DNA from: Chrysochromulina parva
Lineage: Eukaryota > Haptophyta > Prymnesiales > Chrysochromulinaceae
Assembly: GCA_002887195.1 (NCBI GenBank)
Contig: PJAB01001839.1
Coordinates: forward strand, 1 to 11,942
DNA length: 11,942 nucleotides
Direction: 5' to 3'
Part shown: positions 1,681 to 11,746 of the stretch, in pieces
How positions within the stretch are numbered: position 1 is the first letter of the stretch
Layout: each line of letters starts with the position of its first letter
Program-made: the position numbers and the translations under genes
The notes under the pieces: model-generated
Databases searched by the model: none
Told to the model about the DNA's origin: nothing
The model's input: only the letters and a program-made list of their open reading frames with translations

Positions 1681-1900
1681 ATGTTTCACCCCAAGAAGCG
1701 CATTGTCGAGGACGAGGATGGCTCGCTCGTCGACCCGGGTGCGGGCTCGGTGCGGTCGCGGCATGGTGGCAAGCGTATCGTCGAGGACGAGGATGGCGAG
1801 TTTGTTGACCCGGCGGTGAGTAACAAGCGTGCCCGGTACGGCGGCAAGCGCCTCGTCGAGGACGAGGACGACGATGACGGCGACGGGCTCGTCGAAGACG

Positions 1901-1936
<36 letters not shown>

Positions 1937-4461
1937 GCGGCGACGACGACGATGACGACGGCGGGCCCGAGGACTACGACTCGGCCGACGACTACGACGA
2001 TGAGCTGTACAAGAACCCGCAGGACCGCGCCGAGCTGCTCGCCAAGTCGGACCTCGAGCGAGAGATGATCCTCTCCGACCGCCACGACCAGAAGCAGCGG
2101 CGCAACGAGACGCTGCAGGTGCGAGCCATGATGCGCGCGGAGCGCGCCAAGGCGGCGAAGGCGAAGCCTGCGGCCTCCAAGGAGCGGAACAAAGGGCAAC
2201 AGAGCACGCAGAAGGCGAAGGCGAAGGCCCAAGCCGAAATGCAGGCAAAGCGACAAGAGAAGGCCAGACGCGAGCAGCTGCGCCAGCTGGCGCGCGAGGA
2301 GAGCCGGCGTCGCGACGACGAGGCGGAGGCCGCAGCCGCGCACGACGAGGGTGCGCGCGAGGCCGCCGAGCGATCGGCGCGCGCGCCCGCGCGCGCGGCG
2401 CGCCCAGAGGCCGAGGCCGAGCCGGAGGCGCCCGCCGAGAGTGCCGCTCCGATTGAGTCCCTCGAGCGCATACGGCTCACGCGCACCAAGATCGAGCGCT
2501 GGCTGAACGAGCCGTTTTTTGAGACGGTGCTTCCGGGCTGCTTCGTGCGCGTGGGGATCGGGCAGCACGACCAGTGCCCCATCTACCGCGTGGCCGAGGT
2601 GACCGGCGTCAAGGAGGGCTTCCGCCTCTACACCATTGAGAAGAAGCAGACGACCAAGCGACTCGAGCTCCGTATTGGGGCGTCCAAGCGCTACTTTGAG
2701 ATCTCGTACATCTCGAATACGGACTTCGACATCTCTGAGCTCAACAAGTACCAGCGCATACTTCAGGTGTGTGTGGGCGTGCGTTGCGCGCGCCGCCTAC
2801 GCCACCGCCGCCGCCCGCTAAGGAAGGCTCCTCCTCGACTCCCTCGCGCCCAGCCACGTGAGCGCTATCCTGAGCACCGCGCCCGCGCGCCCCTCGTGCC
2901 CCTCCGACGCGCGGCAGGAGGCCAAGATGCGCTCGCCAACCCTCTCGACCATTGAAGCCAAGGTCGCCGAGCTCAAGGCCTGCAAGAATAAGGAGTACAC
3001 GTACGAGGAGGTCCAGAAGCTCGTCGAGGGTGAGAGGAAGTCCAATAAGATGAAGGGCAACTTTGCGCTGCGCAAGATCGAGCTGCGCACGCAGATCGAG
3101 CACATGCAAGAGAAGGCGGCTGAGTGGGCGCTGCATGTGTCCAACTTCAAGGACGGCCAAGAGGAGGGCCCCTCATCTGTCGATCCCGATAAGACGCCGG
3201 TGCCCTTCACGCCCGAACAGATCGCGGCCAAGGAAGCTGATCTCAAGGCGCTCGACGGCAAGCAAGACCTCGAGAAGCAAATCGAGCAGAAGACCAAGCT
3301 GGCCCAATCCTATCGCATCGATGACATCAACGTGCGCTTTCCCTTCCCACCTCCCTCCCCTCCTCCCTGTCCTCCACCCTCCCAGTTCCCCCCTCGCCGA
3401 CCGCCTCTTCGATGCCCTCTCTGAGCGCCCTCTAACGGGGCACGCAGGTGCGGAACCGCGAGTACCAGCGCCAGATCGAGCGCAAGGTGGGCGAGGAGAC
3501 GCGCAAGGCGGACATTGAAATCTCGGCCGGGCGCGTCCAGATGACCGACCCCTTCAAGCGCCTGCCCATCCGTCCAGTCATCTACTGGGGTATCAAGGAG
3601 GATCCCAACGGCCACCAGGCGGGGCTCGCTTTCCTTGAAGAGAACCAGAAGAAGGAGGGGGTCGTCACCACGAAGTCGGGCCTCCAGTACAAGGTGCTCA
3701 TCGAGGGTGATGGCAGGGAGCACCCGGGCATCGAGTCCAAGTGCGAGTGCCACTACGTGGGTCGGCTCCTCGACGGCACCGAGTTCGACTCGTCGTACAC
3801 ACGAGGCGAGACGGACACCTTCGAGCCTACGAAGGTCATCAAGGGATGGACGGAGGCCTTGCAGCTGATGGTCGTGGGTGACAAGTGGGAGCTGTACTGC
3901 CCCTTCGAGCTCGCGTACGGAGAGAAGGGCAAGCCCTCAGCCAAGATCCCTGCCAAGGCTATGCTCACCTTCGTCATGGAGCTCGTTAACATCAAGGGCG
4001 AGAAGATCCCATCTAGCCGCGCGCCAAGGTCCGCCCCGCTCAACACGGCGTCCCTCGTAGTGGACACGAACGCCGCCGCCGCCGCGCCGACTCCGACCAA
4101 CCCTCTTGTGAGCCCGGGCTTGGCTGCGCTTCTCGACACGCCACGAGCTGCTGCCGATGACGAACTCGGTGTGGCGGCCGAGGCCGACGCAAGCGAAGCC
4201 ATGGCCGCGGAGCCGCGTCTCACGGGCAAGCGCGCGGCGCAGCACCAGATCGACATTGACATCGACATCGACCGCGCCGTCACTGCCGACGCGGTCCCCG
4301 CGCCGCGCGCCCGCCCGCTCGCCGCGCCGCGCCCGCCGCCCGCCAGCGGCGCGGGCGCCTCGGCCAGCGGCGCCCCTGCCGGCGGCGCACCTGCCGTCGG
4401 CCAGCGCCTGAGCCTGACAGACTACAAGAGGCGGCTAAGTCTTGGGCAGGGAGTGCTTTGA
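1681..4461 (+). CDS. RTF1: RTF1 (Paf1 complex subunit) with a nested FKBP-type peptidyl-prolyl isomerase domain
   Basis: Exons 1681-2766, 2918-3331 and 3448-4461 join in phase 0 to encode 837 aa. RTF1 couples the Paf1 complex to elongating RNA polymerase II and promotes H2B ubiquitylation. Residues 6-60 hold three N-terminal repeats starting KR(I/L)VEDED. Residues 64-100 are an Asp/Gly acidic tract. Residues about 104-145 match the histone modification domain (DRAELL, LEREMILSDR). A charged helical stretch follows. Residues about 258-370 are the Plus3 domain (RTKIERWLNEPFF, GCFVRVGIG, YRVAEVTGV), which in known RTF1 binds Spt5. Exon 2 and the start of exon 3 carry the usual helical tail, ending INVRNREYQRQIE, then the MTDPFKR motif (532-538). 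Residues about 568-684 form a complete FKBP domain that keeps HYVG, EFDSSY, VIKGW, AYG and LTF, so the isomerase is probably active. After a low-complexity linker, residues 764-775 (HQIDIDIDID) and 821-829 (LSLTDYKRR) match the conserved RTF1 C-terminal end, which in yeast binds the Paf1 complex. The FKBP domain therefore sits inside RTF1, within one uninterrupted exon. The ATG at 1681 is the first in frame and precedes the repeats. Confidence 0.92.
1696..1869 (+). repeat. 75-bp coding repeats at the N-terminus of RTF1
   Basis: Two full copies of 75 bp (25 codons) at 1696-1770 and 1771-1845 and a third truncated copy from 1846 each begin with codons for KR(I/L)VEDED. The copies have diverged at synonymous and non-synonymous sites, so the duplication is not recent. 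Confidence 0.8.
1858..1990 (+). repeat. GAC/GGC trinucleotide tract encoding poly-Asp/Gly
   Basis: Runs of GAC and GAT codons interrupted by six consecutive GGC codons form an in-frame microsatellite in RTF1 that encodes the acidic tract. Such tracts change length easily, so the number of Asp and Gly residues may vary between strains. Confidence 0.85.
2767..2917 (+). other. RTF1 intron 1 (151 bp, phase 0)
   Basis: The donor is TTCAG|GTGTGT and the acceptor GCGGCAG|GAGGCC. Removing it joins the Plus3 end (YQRILQ) to EAKMRSPTLSTIE, restoring the spacing seen in RTF1 proteins. Both borders carry CAGG. The length is not a multiple of three. Confidence 0.85.
3332..3447 (+). other. RTF1 intron 2 (116 bp, phase 0)
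   Basis: The donor is ATCAAC|GTGCGC and the acceptor CACGCAG|GTGCGG, with a strong pyrimidine tract of C and T runs in between. Splicing joins YRIDDIN to VRNREYQ, which matches the conserved RTF1 segment ending in IN-x-RNRE. GTGCG is present at both borders as a 5-bp direct repeat. Confidence 0.9.
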
Positions 4462-6617: not shown

Positions 6618-8036
6618 CTACATGCATCCCTTCAACCACTTGTGGCGCATCGCCTCCTCGATAGTCATCCGATGAAGCTGGTCGGGCTCGAGCAGCTTCT
6701 GCATAAAGTCCATGCAGCTCGAGCTCACCTGTGATGCGACCCCAACGACTCTCAGCGACATGGCGCGATGGTGGGCAGGGAGGGTTTGGGATTCGGGCCA
6801 GGGTATGTGCTGCGCTGGCGTGCGGGCAGCCTCCACGCTCGCTCTCTCTCTCTCAGATGTCTCTCTCACCTGTCCGAACGAATTCAGGGGGTACGCCAGG
6901 CCCCCCTCGATGATGTTGTCAAGCTGCGTATCTTCATCTTGATGGAAGTACGGGGTGGAGCCATGGAGCATCTGGTACACCACGCAGCCGAGCGCGTAGC
7001 AATCGACCGCCGCGCCATACTTCATGCCCTCTTGCGGCTCCTTGCGTCGAACCTGCGGCCATTCGGGCGCAAGCGGGCACCTCTCGATTAGGCAATGGCA
7101 AGCACGGCACTCAGAGGCTAGGTGAGCGGGTGAGCGGGTCGAGTCTCCTCTCACCGCGCGCACGATCCGGGCGAGCTCTGGCGCGAAGTAGTCCATGGAG
7201 CCAGCATAAAGAGAGAAGCAAGGCTCCTTTGGGCTGCCGCTGAATTCGGCACTGAAGCCAAAGTCAGTGAGCTTGAGGGATCCCGCCTTCATCGGATTTG
7301 TCCGCCAACGGCACAGGACGTTTTGCGGCTTGATGTCGCGATGGGCCATCGAATGGGCCTGGTGCAAGTGCGCGATTGCCGCGGCGATCTGGACGGTGAT
7401 CAGCCGCACGTTCTTCTCGGACATTTCTGCCGAGTACACACCGCCATCGATGGCGTCTTGTAGGTCGCCGCCGCTCATCAGCTCGGTCACCAGATGGAGG
7501 CTCACATTCTCCAAATGAACGACCTCGACGAGCTGCAGGATGGAAGGATGGTAGGTCCAGCTGACGGCCGTCCACACCCTCACCTCGTCATGAGCGGCGT
7601 TCCACTGCCCCTTGAGCTTGCACTGCGAAAAGAGCACTTCTTTTGCCGCAAACTCCTTGCCGTCGGCGACTCGTTCGACCTTGGAGACGGTCCCGAATGC
7701 TCCCGCACCGAGCTTCTGCAGGACCTTGTAGTGATCGTTGAACGCGATTCCGTTGAGGCAGCGGACACCGGCATGCTTCTGATCTTCGTTCTTGGAAACG
7801 ACGAGGTCCGAGACATGCTCACGGCGCGCAGGCAGCCACAGCTTCCACAGCACCCCAAGGCCCTTGCCGCCATTGCCGCGCCCGACTGGCTTCGCTCCAC
7901 GGCCTTTGATGTTTGCGATCGGCGCATTCTCCTTGTGGGCAGGCGCTGCTGCCTTGCCCTTCTGGGCGGGCTTAATGCTGCCCTGGGCCTCGTTCTCAAA
8001 CATGACCGTCAACATCCTCTTGGACGGCGACAACAT
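6618..8036 (-). CDS. CAMK-like serine/threonine protein kinase with N-terminal KEN box
   Basis: Exons (minus strand) 8036-7155, 7052-6870 and 6728-6618 encode 391 aa after two introns are removed. Domain positions before intron 1 are as follows. Residues 1-60 are a basic leader with a KEN box at 35-37. The kinase domain starts near 90: glycine loop LGAGAFGTV (99-107), ATP-binding Lys122, helix C Glu141, HRDIKPQN (222-229), DFG (248-250) and APE (275-277). Past intron 1 come AVDCYALGCVVYQMLHG (helix F) and, past intron 2, LLEPDQLHRMTIEEAMRHKWL (helix I). All catalytic residues are present, so it should be active. The helix F and I wording fits the CAMK group, but no calmodulin-binding or regulatory tail follows the domain. 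The leader resembles that of the downstream 5251-6537 gene. The KEN box suggests cell-cycle-timed destruction. The ATG at 8036 is the first in frame; Met8 and Met12 are alternatives. Confidence 0.88.
   Translation of the reverse strand: MLSPSKRMLTVMFENEAQGSIKPAQKGKAAAPAHKENAPIANIKGRGAKPVGRGNGGKGLGVLWKLWLPARREHVSDLVVSKNEDQKHAGVRCLNGIAFNDHYKVLQKLGAGAFGTVSKVERVADGKEFAAKEVLFSQCKLKGQWNAAHDEVRVWTAVSWTYHPSILQLVEVVHLENVSLHLVTELMSGGDLQDAIDGGVYSAEMSEKNVRLITVQIAAAIAHLHQAHSMAHRDIKPQNVLCRWRTNPMKAGSLKLTDFGFSAEFSGSPKEPCFSLYAGSMDYFAPELARIVRAVRGDSTRSPAHLASECRACHCLIERCPLAPEWPQVRRKEPQEGMKYGAAVDCYALGCVVYQMLHGSTPYFHQDEDTQLDNIIEGGLAYPLNSFGQVRETSERERASVEAARTPAQHIPWPESQTLPAHHRAMSLRVVGVASQVSSSCMDFMQKLLEPDQLHRMTIEEAMRHKWLKGCM
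6729..6869 (-). other. kinase intron 2 (141 bp, phase 0, stop-free)
   Basis: On the minus strand the donor is GGACAG|GTGAGA and the acceptor ATCACAG|GTGAGC. The nine bases ACAGGTGAG occur at both borders, so the exact cut cannot be told apart within the repeat and the product is the same. Left in, it would add 47 codons between kinase subdomains X and XI, where the family has no such insert. A GA-repeat tract lies just inside the donor. Confidence 0.85.
7053..7154 (-). other. kinase intron 1 (102 bp, phase 0, stop-free)
   Basis: On the minus strand the donor is CGCGCG|GTGAGA and the acceptor GGCCGCAG|GTTCGA. Removing it joins IVRA to VRRKEPQEGMKYG, giving normal spacing between APE and helix F. 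Retained, it would add 34 codons without a stop, Cys-rich and unlike kinase sequence. An 8-bp unit (GGTGAGCG on the plus strand) is repeated inside at 7121-7138. Confidence 0.82.
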
Positions 8037-8216
8037 GCTTTCGAACGTTTCCGAGGATTATTCGAGAGAAGCGAGCGAAGGTGGACGATCGACGGAGGAC
8101 CAGGGAGCCCTTCTGATGCCCGAGCCGTCAAACGCGAGGAAGAAAGCGAGCGCGAGATTGAGGCGTTCAACACGACGCGCGCGCGACGGACCACAATCCA
8201 CGTTGTATGACCGCGG

Positions 8217-8532: not shown

Positions 8533-9942
8533 ATGCCCGCCGGCGTCACGCCCACATGGGAGTACTGGGACCCCGAGTCGTCCGCAAATGCTTTCCGAGG
8601 CAAAGAAATCATGATCGCGCCGCCCATGCAGCTGGAGACTGCAACGACCACCTACCGGAAGAATTACCCGCTTCACCCGGTCTGGGTCCGGCATCAGGAG
8701 AAGGTGAACCACCTGAACCGACCTGTGCCGAGCTATCCGATGACCACGTCAAGCCGCGAGTTCTACAAGGAGCACAAGAATGCGGTCCCTCCCATGTCCG
8801 CGGCCGCCAAATACCCACAGCCAATGTTCGCGCCGAAGTTCTCTGTCTCAACTACCAGCCGCGACACTATGGGCAAACCAAATGACGATGCGTACCAGCG
8901 GCCGCAGTCTGCATTCGGCAGGCCGCCCCCATTCAAGCCGAACAACGCGCCGCTCGGCACGACAACCCAGCGCGCTGACTTCCTCGAGTGGAAGCCTCAA
9001 GCGAAGCACCCTCACCATGGTGAGGGGCCGCATCCCACCAAGCCGACGAAATTCCAGTCCGAGACGACGTCGCGCGAGACCTTCCGACCCCCGCCACCGC
9101 AGCCCCCCGCCGCCCCCGCGCACGAGCGCCCGCCCTACAAGGTCACGCCAGCGGGGCCGGAGTACACGACCACGTACCGACAGGCCTATGAGATCATTCC
9201 GTTGCCAAAGGGCATCGTGGGCGGCATCGGATTGCAGGTGATGGCCCTTGATTGCCCTTGATTGCCCCGCGGGCGATGGGTGGCCATGGGAGCCGACGCG
9301 ACCGCATTCGTGGCCTCCTCCATGGCCGCCATGGCTGCCGCCGCCGTCTGGCCCCCACCGCCCTCCCCCCTCCTGCCCACCCGCCTCCTGCCCTAGTGTG
9401 TGCTCACCGGGGAGCGCCGGGACTTCACACGACCTCACACGACCTCTGTGCCACCAACCGACCCGCAGGTGGCGAGCGGACCATACAAGAAGGGGGGCAC
9501 CGGCGGACACTACGAGCCGATGATCAAACAGGGCGCCCCCGCGCCCCAGGTCGCACAGAAGACGTTTACGACCACGGCTGACGAGCAGACCACCGCCGAC
9601 ATCGTCGTGGTTACCAAACGAGAGGACCGGCCAGATGGGGTGGTGCTTGGCTTCTTTCGGCTCGCTGGCCTCAAGAAAGGTCCACAGGGCATACCCAAGA
9701 TCGAGGTGCGATCTCGCGGATTGTCGCGGATTGCCACTGATGGCCGCTGATGGTCACTTATGGCCGCTGATGGCCGTTGCCTCATTTGGCAGGTCATCCT
9801 GAAACTGCAGAACGAGAAGACCCTGCATGCGTCGGCCACTTACGTCCAGGGCGGCAAGAAGACTGCTCTTACCTTCGTGTCCGCCGGGCCTAAGGCGCCG
9901 CCGCTGCGCTCGGTCACTGACCTCTCAGAGGTGCCACATTGA
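8533..9942 (+). CDS. SAXO-like microtubule-binding repeats fused to an Hsp70 substrate-binding beta-domain
   Basis: Exons 8533-9237, 9469-9705 and 9793-9942 join in phase 0 to encode 363 aa. Residues 1-235 are Pro-rich and carry six repeats about 33 residues apart centred on TT(T/S)-x-R: TTTYRKNY (38-45), MTTSSREFY (70-78), STTSRDTM (106-113), TTTQRADF (143-150), ETTSRETF (177-184) and TTTYRQAY (212-219). Such repeats are typical of the SAXO/FAM154 family, which binds and stabilises axonemal microtubules. Exons 2 and 3 (residues about 250-342) read as the substrate-binding beta-sandwich of Hsp70: QKTFTTTADEQTTADI, then LGFFRLAGLKKGPQGIPKIE, then LHASATYVQGGKK. This parallels FTTAADNQT, LLG-x-F-x-L-x-GIPPAPRG-x-P-x-IE and V-x-A in Hsp70. 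No ATPase domain or lid is present. The product probably sits on the flagellar axoneme and presents a peptide-binding or adaptor fold. The start ATG has a good context (CAACCATG). Splicing is required to reach the Hsp70 part, and all junctions restore the family alignment. Confidence 0.82.
9238..9468 (+). other. SAXO-Hsp70 intron 1 (231 bp, phase 0)
   Basis: The donor is ATTGCAG|GTGATG and the acceptor CCCGCAG|GTGGCG, with GCAGGTG at both borders. Inside, 10-bp units are tandemly repeated: TGATGGCCCT and variants three times at 9239-9268, and TCACACGACC twice at 9425-9444. A pyrimidine-rich stretch lies at about 9330-9395. It contains in-frame stops, so retention would end the protein right after the SAXO repeats. 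Confidence 0.85.
9706..9792 (+). other. SAXO-Hsp70 intron 2 (87 bp, phase 0)
   Basis: The donor is ATCGAG|GTGCGA and the acceptor TTTGGCAG|GTCATC. Splicing joins GIPKIE to VILKLQ, which is the continuous beta-strand region of Hsp70. Most of the intron is made of 10-bp tandem units: CGCGGATTG(T/C) twice at 9715-9734 and TGATGGCCGC-like four times at 9738-9777. Confidence 0.85.
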
Positions 9943-10558
9943 GCTAGGGCAACCCTACCTGAAACGGTGGCACACGTGCGTGTCGGTGCGGGCGACGACT
10001 ACGTGGCGCGCGTGTGGAGAGCTCCAGAGCCCTGAGCCACCATGATATACTATTGGAAGTCTTTCGCATGCCGCCCCGTCCGCATTGATGATGTGAACTG
10101 CAACTGGTCTCGCCCCCCGGTCCTCCGCTCCTGCCCCGGCCCCGCATGCAAGATGCATGTCAACTTTTGAAGCTTTACATGTTGAAAGACTACACGTAGC
10201 ATCATGCGTTATCGGCATGGTCGTATACCGAATACCGTTTCACGATGTGTCGGAGTCGGCACGGTCGCGACCGGTGTCGACAACTTCACGCTCGACATCG
10301 AAGCGGTGACCGGTGTACGTGAGCGTGTGTACGACAAGTGGGGGGTGATTCGTCAATAGTGAATAGACATGAAAGGAGCGGGTTGATTTCAGCGATCTTC
10401 ATCCGATCTAAGACGCGGGGTCTATAAAAGTCATTGCGTTGTGAAAACATCTTACCATCCGGGCGTGCGCCGGCGGGTAGGCGGTAACATAGCTCGCTGG
10501 CCGAACACACAGGTGTGTTACAACCTGGACCAGGTCGGTTGGCGAGCCGCGGCTCGCG
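9943..10558. other. intergenic region, no gene supported
   Basis: It lies between the 3' end of the SAXO-Hsp70 gene and the 3' end of the GH76 gene. I see no coding content. It holds a TATAAAAG motif on the plus strand at 10423-10430 with no obvious gene after it, and three adjacent perfect inverted repeats at 10504-10557. Confidence 0.6.
10504..10557. repeat. cluster of three perfect inverted repeats beside the GH76 stop
   Basis: AACACAC-AG-GTGTGTT (10504-10519), ACCTGG-A-CCAGGT (10523-10535) and GCGAGCCGCGGCTCGC (10542-10557) follow one another with starts 19 bp apart. The last lies directly downstream of the GH76 stop codon on the minus strand, so the cluster would be the first 3'-UTR sequence of that transcript. 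A role in 3'-end formation or mRNA stability is possible. Confidence 0.65.
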
Positions 10559-11746
10559 TCATGTAGCTATTAGGACGGCGCAGTTCGCCGCGAAGAGCTC
10601 GAGGGCGGGGATTTGGGACGAGGTGGTCGGGGTCCACTCGTCGAAGTCATACCAGTGCGGCCCCAGCTGCCAGGAGCTCGTACACTCGTACGCGAGCGCG
10701 CCGCGCAGGCTGCGTTGTATGAGCTCCTTGATCTGCGGGAGCGGCTCGACCTGGTAGAGATCACTCAGCCCCCGGACGTACGGCCCTCGGAACTCGACGC
10801 CATCCCCGCACGCCGGAAAAGGGGCCCCACAAGACTCGCAGCACTGCTGCCCCGATTGGCCGCAGTTGCACCCCTCGCGGATCGCGCCTGATGGATCGAG
10901 GAAGGCGCTGCTCGTGACGGCGGCCTGGGCCATGGTGCTCGCCGCCGCCAGGTATGTCCCATTCTTCGTGTTGCGGTACAGCTCGGTGAGCGCACTGATC
11001 ACGACGCCCGTGTTGTAGCTGTACGTGGCCCACGAGAGGTTTGCGTAACAGCTCGGCTCGTAGGTCGGCTTGTTGCACTGGGTCGAATCCGCGACGAGGC
11101 CATCTGAGCGGACGAGGCCGCTGCCACTGAGCCACCCCCAGACGCGCGTGGCCATCTCGAGGTATTGGCTCTCGCCGGTGAGTGCATGCAGCTTGGACGA
11201 GAGGAGCAGCAGAAGCCCATTCGGGATCGCCTTCTTACCCTGCCCGGGTGGCTGCGATCGGTCCCAGGGAACGCCACCCCCACACTCATCCGTCCACGTC
11301 TGCTGGATGGTCATCCACGCACCCTTGGCAGCCGCGAGCCACCCTTGGGACGCATCCCCATAGGTTCTCGCTGCCTCGCATGCCCACAGAGCCCACCAGG
11401 CCTGGTCGTCGTTGAAACTGTTGAGCTCAAACGTGGGCGAAGAGTAGTTGAGGGCGCGCGCAAACACAGCTTCGATCGTCTTTCGATTCTGCTCGTCGCC
11501 CCCGCGCCTATCCTTGAGTGTCACCGCCGTCCAAGCGTTGGCAGCTACCCACCATTGGACATCTCTGGGAAGCGATGACGACCGAGTCGGATCAACGGAG
11601 AGTAGCAACGTGTTGATGGCGGCTTGAAAGGCGTCATTGAGCGACTTGGCGTCGTTGATGTCCACGGTCTGACATGTTACGCTCGCCTGTGCCATAGGCA
11701 TGGCGCTCACGCTCACGAACCCGATCAACATTATTGCGAGCAGCAT
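10559..11746 (-). CDS. secreted glycoside hydrolase family 76 (alpha-1,6-mannanase-like)
   Basis: A single intronless frame of 395 codons. The N-terminus MLLAIMLIGFVSVSAMPMAQA is a hydrophobic signal peptide, with likely cleavage near residue 21. The body has GH76 hallmarks in order: WWVAANAW (65-72); NSFNDDQAWWALW (109-121), with the adjacent Asp113-Asp114 pair that is catalytic in characterised GH76 enzymes; GGGVPWD (156-162); KKAIPNGLLLLLSSKL (171-186); WGWL (203-206); WATYSYNTGVVISAL (239-253); and a Cys-rich segment (293-313) before FRGPYVRGL (319-327). Size and order fit the family. Characterised members are bacterial endo-alpha-1,6-mannanases and fungal Dfg5/Dcw1 wall proteins; the C-terminus here lacks the hydrophobic tail of the GPI-anchored fungal forms. 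The product probably trims or links mannose-containing glycans at the cell surface or outside the cell. The Asn-x-Ser/Thr sites present (for example 100-102, 236-238, 262-264) fit a secretory route. An ATG 10 bp further upstream is out of frame. Confidence 0.88.
   Translation of the reverse strand: MLLAIMLIGFVSVSAMPMAQASVTCQTVDINDAKSLNDAFQAAINTLLLSVDPTRSSSLPRDVQWWVAANAWTAVTLKDRRGGDEQNRKTIEAVFARALNYSSPTFELNSFNDDQAWWALWACEAARTYGDASQGWLAAAKGAWMTIQQTWTDECGGGVPWDRSQPPGQGKKAIPNGLLLLLSSKLHALTGESQYLEMATRVWGWLSGSGLVRSDGLVADSTQCNKPTYEPSCYANLSWATYSYNTGVVISALTELYRNTKNGTYLAAASTMAQAAVTSSAFLDPSGAIREGCNCGQSGQQCCESCGAPFPACGDGVEFRGPYVRGLSDLYQVEPLPQIKELIQRSLRGALAYECTSSWQLGPHWYDFDEWTPTTSSQIPALELFAANCAVLIAT

Follow-up and report, generated by a model that had tools for sequence, protein, structure and literature searches.

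RTF1 is a core elongation factor across eukaryotes, a factor of the Paf1 complex that binds Spt5 and RNA polymerase II (Pol II). According to a section of one report, its Plus3 domain binds the Spt5 CTR and its C-terminal region binds Paf1C (PMC5467213), and the main text of another describes a Latch that stimulates elongation and a Hook that binds Ctr9 (PMC13289920). Among the FKBPs, the nuclear proteins with a nucleoplasmin-like domain, yeast Fpr4 and Drosophila FKBP39, are presented in the source passages as an isomerase tied to a chromatin-associated domain. An RTF1 that carries an FKBP was, as far as the earlier note on this DNA was aware, undescribed, and this view held: no description of an RTF1-FKBP protein was recognised among the papers listed by searches of open-access full-text literature, and the main text of the evolutionary survey in PMC13289920 contains none of the terms FKBP, isomerase, PPIase, haptophyte or fusion. 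Here we report a gene in which a complete FKBP is inserted in RTF1, and from sequence comparison we judge this to be a real, apparently lineage-restricted and new architecture of a known protein.

The window, that is, the whole stretch of DNA analysed, comprises 11,942 bases of contig C1839 in a 45-Mb assembly of 2199 contigs. The RTF1 gene lies on its + strand and consists of three exons, all in phase 0 and joined across GT-AG introns, with a predicted product of 837 amino acids (aa). Exon 1 (1681..2766, 362 codons followed by GTGTGTG) encodes an acidic N-terminus and the Plus-3 domain (2461..2757, residues 261-359), which matched PF03126 with an E-value of 3.2e-27 (95.6 bits vs a cut-off of 27). 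A stretch in front of this domain (1969..2124, borders drawn by eye) aligned to human RTF1, and we take it to be approximately the region of the RTF1 histone modification domain. Homologues are collinear across intron 1 (2767..2917), and exon 2 (2918..3331, 138 codons) encodes the RTF1 region behind Plus-3 according to the homologue alignment. Intron 2 (3332..3447) is 116 nucleotides (nt) long and is followed by exon 3 (3448..4461), whose reading frame is uninterrupted between 3436 and its termination codon at 4459-4461.

Other features of the window were recorded as well. Upstream of the RTF1 gene, at 12-212 and 1335-1538, there are arrays of near-palindromic units of about 21 bases resembling CCTCACTGTGAGGC, with 9 matches in the window at two or fewer mismatches vs 0.12 expected. 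On the - strand, a protein kinase domain (PF00069, E 4.3e-52) was found at 6621-8054 and a match to a glycosyl hydrolase family 76 gene (PF03663, E 1.6e-45) at 10562-11746. An apparent intron-bearing gene on the + strand (8533-9951) has repeated TTSRE-like motifs and resembles, by eye, an axonemal microtubule-associated protein; its first exon (8533-9240) had no Pfam match.

Exon 3 opens with the tail of the conserved RTF1 helical region (VRNREY, residue 501), and continues with DPFKR (residue 534; 3547..3561, + strand) and VIYW (544). DPFKR aligned to human DPFTR, and all 16 RTF1s of the alignment share DPFxR; we presume that the DPF region is part of the RTF1 latch. The FKBP then extends from DPNG (552) to GEKIP (688), that is, over 3601..4011 on the + strand, an extent in line with the match to a stand-alone FKBP (P0137), and this stretch is without counterpart in all 15 aligned RTF1 homologues. 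Behind it follow SLVVDT (702), SPG (722), GKRAAQH-IDIDIDI (760) and LSLTDYK (821; 4408..4428), the last being the RTF1 C-terminal motif conserved in both the homologue and the human alignments. The Hook-like stretch GKRAAQHQIDIDIDID (4225..4272) is collinear with human residues 655-674, which the main text of PMC13289920 names the Hook, and its match to the human protein is weak when taken by itself. Within the insert, the FKBP_C catalytic domain (3718..3987, residues 591-680) matched PF00254 with an E-value of 1.1e-23 (83.8 bits vs a cut-off of 21.1), and positions 70-97 of the 97 positions of FKBP_N matched at residues 556-583 (E 3.1e-8); the Plus-3, FKBP_N and FKBP_C matches are all above the curated cut-offs. 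The open frame, the Pfam matches and the alignment thus bear out the earlier note, which had read RTF1 tail, DPFKR, complete FKBP, linker and RTF1 C-terminus from one uninterrupted exon. The location of the FKBP inside RTF1 also stood, and the limits that had been given for it, residues 568-684, did not, the foreign stretch being nearer 552-688.

The RTF1 part was compared with homologues in an alignment (A2) of the window protein and 15 RTF1s from Plus-3 to the C-terminus. The homologues include the haptophytes Haptolina ericina (P0008), Chrysotila carterae (P0019) and Emiliania huxleyi (P0021) as well as an MMETSP record (P0017), and the rest are mostly metagenome proteins; two further members of the 17 Plus-3 proteins were excluded, namely P0028, which is without DPFxR, and the nematode P0120, used only as the outgroup of the RTF1 tree. 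DPFxR, the tyrosine at YW/YY, SPG and the LS...YK end are common to all 15 homologues and the window protein, and P0021 has a Hook-like stretch without its GKRA part. The spacing from YW to SPG is 40-63 residues in every homologue vs 176 in the window RTF1, while the length from SPG to the end, 116 residues, falls in the homologue range of 80-130, indicating that the insert is confined to one linker. With RTF1 sequence on both sides by the measure of these insert-free proteins, the FKBP is very unlikely to be the product of two neighbouring genes merged by error, in support of the argument made in the earlier note.

The A2 profile, which includes the window protein, matched human RTF1 with an E-value of 9.7e-61 over profile positions 3-431; the window protein alone gave 1.1e-38 and reached residue 420, with only 3.2 bits for the DPF part. 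The Hook and C-terminal part was collinear with human RTF1 residues of about 647-708, a match that is weak alone (i-Evalue 2.9 with the A2 profile), and the GKRAxAHxIDIDIDI stretch, conserved among the aligned homologues, was collinear with human residues near 655-674. Judged from these homologues, the window probably belongs to a marine haptophyte alga. In the RTF1 tree (17 rows) the placement of the window RTF1 was unsupported, and the end branch of its core was ordinary in length (0.49 vs a median of 0.48). Two Plus-3 matches were found in the genome and only the window gene reads as RTF1; the other, on contig C151 (E 6.6e-9), was rejected as a second RTF1 by eye, its 705-aa frame resembling a BAH-like plus Plus-3 protein. 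As for other Paf1C subunits, Leo1 (1.3e-40) and Paf1 (4.2e-7) were matched in the same genome, and Cdc73_C was not matched there, its control being equally silent.

A second occurrence of the join was found in P0121, a 250-aa protein on a public contig of 1000 bases that starts at the end of exon 2 and continues across intron 2 into the RTF1 tail, DPFKR and FKBP. Compared with exon 3 of the window, P0121 has 0 changes in the 56 residues of the RTF1 tail, 5 in the 129 of the FKBP and 3 in the 16 just after it; its last six residues diverge and the fragment then ends. Since this end comes before the RTF1 C-terminus, it is the window that supplies RTF1 sequence on both flanks of the FKBP. Intron 2 of P0121, 118 nt by the reading frame vs 116 nt in the window, has diverged in sequence. 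We read P0121 as the product of another genome, where the exon would have been kept and the intron not.

The earlier note had proposed a search of homologues for an FKBP between the DPF and C-terminal motifs, and this search favoured its reading, with all 15 RTF1s free of the insert and P0121 alone sharing the N-side join. Among the 235 proteins gathered, DPFxR occurs in 16, namely the 15 RTF1s without FKBP and P0121 with it. FKBP_C was found in 0 of the 17 Plus-3 proteins among the matches listed (120 of 205) in the protein search, and the RTF1 tail was found on P0121 only, among the matches listed (120 of 5930) in the FKBP protein search. High-scoring FKBP proteins (P0010, P0013-P0016 and P0018) were rejected as relatives of the fusion, having repeated FKBP domains and no RTF1 join. 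A protein search with the part behind the FKBP gave nothing at E 0.01 among 7995 candidates scored. Viral contigs contained no match to the whole of exon 3, and a match of 14 residues on one of them (L047), in a frame full of stops, was taken as chance.

The fold of the insert was predicted with AlphaFold2 using exon 3, a check that had also been suggested beforehand, and the insert was modelled as an FKBP, with block means of 91-98 pLDDT over exon residues 51-190. Most of the linker behind it was below 50 pLDDT, and the exon as a whole had a mean of 71.4 and a pTM of 0.51. The best PDB matches of the insert, by fold as well as by sequence, were FKBPs of the Mip type, the best fold match having an E-value of 1.7e-16. 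The active site was compared using an FKBP12 sequence and 14 positions that we assume to form its pocket. Of these positions, ten are kept (Y26, F36, D37, V55, I56, W59, Y82, I91, L97 and F99), and none of the ten varies across the 40 rows of FKBP alignment A1. Of the other four, F46, H87 and I90 are changed to D, K and A, and E54 lies in a gap, which qualifies the earlier reading of the active site. An invariant Phe stands two residues past the position aligned with F46. Because the F46 and H87 positions vary family-wide in A1, these two departures are not peculiar to the RTF1 copy.

Concerning origin, the closest stand-alone FKBPs among the matches listed start with (M)SDPNG, and their similarity to the insert begins at the first residues of the insert; residues 2-141 of P0137 match window 3598-4020 at 71%. 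Many of the (M)SDPNG proteins among the matches listed carry a P_C10 domain. In an FKBP tree with 57 domains, the copies of the window and P0121 paired with 100/100 support within a 33-row clade (98/89), which includes proteins of Protoceratium reticulatum (P0152), Pyrodinium bahamense (P0156) and Scyphosphaera apsteinii (P0194). The inner branch leading to the pair was long, 0.98 vs a median end branch of 0.21, and could reflect a changed or relaxed function. The tree points to derivation of the insert from the stand-alone algal (M)SDPNG family, with nearly the whole FKBP part of the donor apparently taken. Paralogues in the same genome were rejected as the source, those on C1009, C2108, C329 and C1036 forming a separate clade (100/96) and those on C1193 and C820 being without the SDPNG start and outside the tree. 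The P_C10 tail of the donor was not matched in the genome, in a search that had no positive control and an assembly that is possibly incomplete; for these two reasons a move of the donor FKBP into RTF1, rather than a copy, is possible and unproven. As a trace of mobile-element activity or of a duplication where the FKBP was inserted, only one direct pair of 26 nt (3454-3479 and 4228-4253, 77%) came into consideration, and, although it does bracket the insert, it lies far from the insert borders and was taken as chance.

The same genome has a large FKBP repertoire, with 61 FKBP_C matches when exon pieces are counted apart, located at L004, L008, L036, L043 and other loci. Among six long FKBP frames analysed with Pfam, four had weak matches, two frames to TPR and two to SAP, all under the curated cut-offs. 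As some of the 61 matches are in long proteins, FKBP fusions in general may not be rare in this genome, and the protein search also returned FKBPs joined to other domains elsewhere (P0020, P0023 and P0024). By eye, the FKBP loci L037 and L038 have WD40-like and GTPase-like partners. At L014 (1456-2811) an FKBP is N-terminal on a lysine/serine-rich protein in which the segment ESDLHEKQEEFLAWLSEVK looks conserved; Pfam matched FKBP_C only, and this is possibly another nuclear FKBP fusion. At L049 (1061-1576, contig C820) the FKBP match is broken by stop codons, representing an intron or a decayed copy.

The explanation that an error of assembly or gene model fused an RTF1 gene with an FKBP gene gains something from the division of the assembly into so many contigs, but RTF1-specific sequence both precedes and follows the FKBP within one frame, and the separately assembled and diverged P0121 shows the same N-side join, further weakening a merge, so that we consider such an error very improbable. 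A different way to keep the working RTF1 ordinary is to regard the FKBP segment as a cassette subject to removal, or as confined to a minor transcript. GT and AG dinucleotides can indeed be seen by eye around the segment. However, the segment lies in an open frame with GC3 like that of its neighbours (0.90 before the FKBP, 0.875 within and 0.82 after), it is modelled confidently, and its protein is kept in P0121 where the adjoining intron 2 has diverged; an ordinary RTF1 produced in this manner is improbable.

The explanation that deserves more weight accepts the FKBP as a real part of RTF1 and gives it a passive role only, for docking or spacing, in which it binds a partner or alters the linker and catalyses no isomerisation on the polymerase. 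Catalytically inactive FKBPs exist, FKBP6 and the Fk2 domain of FKBP52 being described as such in a part of PMC4496705. The long inner branch to the RTF1 FKBPs, next to the ordinary end branch of the RTF1 core, would fit this explanation, as would the three pocket positions that differ and the one that is gapped. Against it, the ten retained pocket residues are all invariant across the 40 aligned family members, and the FKBP differs so little from that of P0121. We regard a passive module as possible, though rather unlikely. Our preferred reading is that the window gene is probably an RTF1 with an FKBP of the (M)SDPNG family in the linker between its DPF and Hook-like segments, which would be tethered at the polymerase as an isomerase or a proline-binding chaperone.

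According to this preferred reading, the FKBP sits in a flexible linker that would run from the DPF segment to the Hook-like segment, the putative Ctr9-binding end. As the insert comes after the one and before the other, RTF1 would keep it close to the elongating polymerase by means of two flexible tethers, and proline-rich tails in the vicinity may there be isomerised by it or bound by it in the manner of a chaperone. Candidate substrates would be the C-terminal repeats of Spt5, the Pol II CTD, the tail of histone H3 and the linker of RTF1 itself; isomerase activity and polymerase substrates are both predicted properties of the RTF1 FKBP. A stronger version, which we offer tentatively and hold to be doubtful, is that in this algal lineage the Paf1 complex gained an isomerase of its own between the DPF/latch region, which would reach the polymerase, and the Ctr9 Hook; this isomerase would switch prolines in the Pol II CTD, Spt5 repeats or H3 tails during elongation and replace the free parent isomerase. 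An enzyme domain within RTF1 would provide a natural experiment on the places at which prolyl isomerisation matters in elongation, and the question of whether and where isomerases act on the elongating polymerase would become approachable through a covalently tethered enzyme. The case is also one of a domain insertion in which both the site in the host protein and the donor family are recognisable.

Compared with the known systems, the RTF1s of haptophytes (P0008, P0019 and P0021) and the relatives P0001-P0007 have the same order of Plus-3, helical region, DPFxR, YW/YY, SPG, IDIDIDI-like stretch and LS...YK, and their best local alignments are 39-54% identical over 51-68% of the query region 261-700; unlike the window RTF1, they are without FKBP. 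The stand-alone (M)SDPNG FKBPs share 71% identity (P0137) and the 98/89 clade with the insert, which differs from them in its position inside RTF1, in being without start codon and P_C10 tail, and in its long branch. The Mip/FkpA-type FKBPs of known structure have the same fold and are the best PDB matches, but the context is wholly different and, because only FKBP_N positions 70-97 of 97 are represented, the insert is not classed as a full two-domain Mip protein. In yeast Fpr4 and Drosophila FKBP39, as the source passages describe them, the FKBP is C-terminal and its partner is a histone-chaperone domain, whereas here the partner is an elongation factor.
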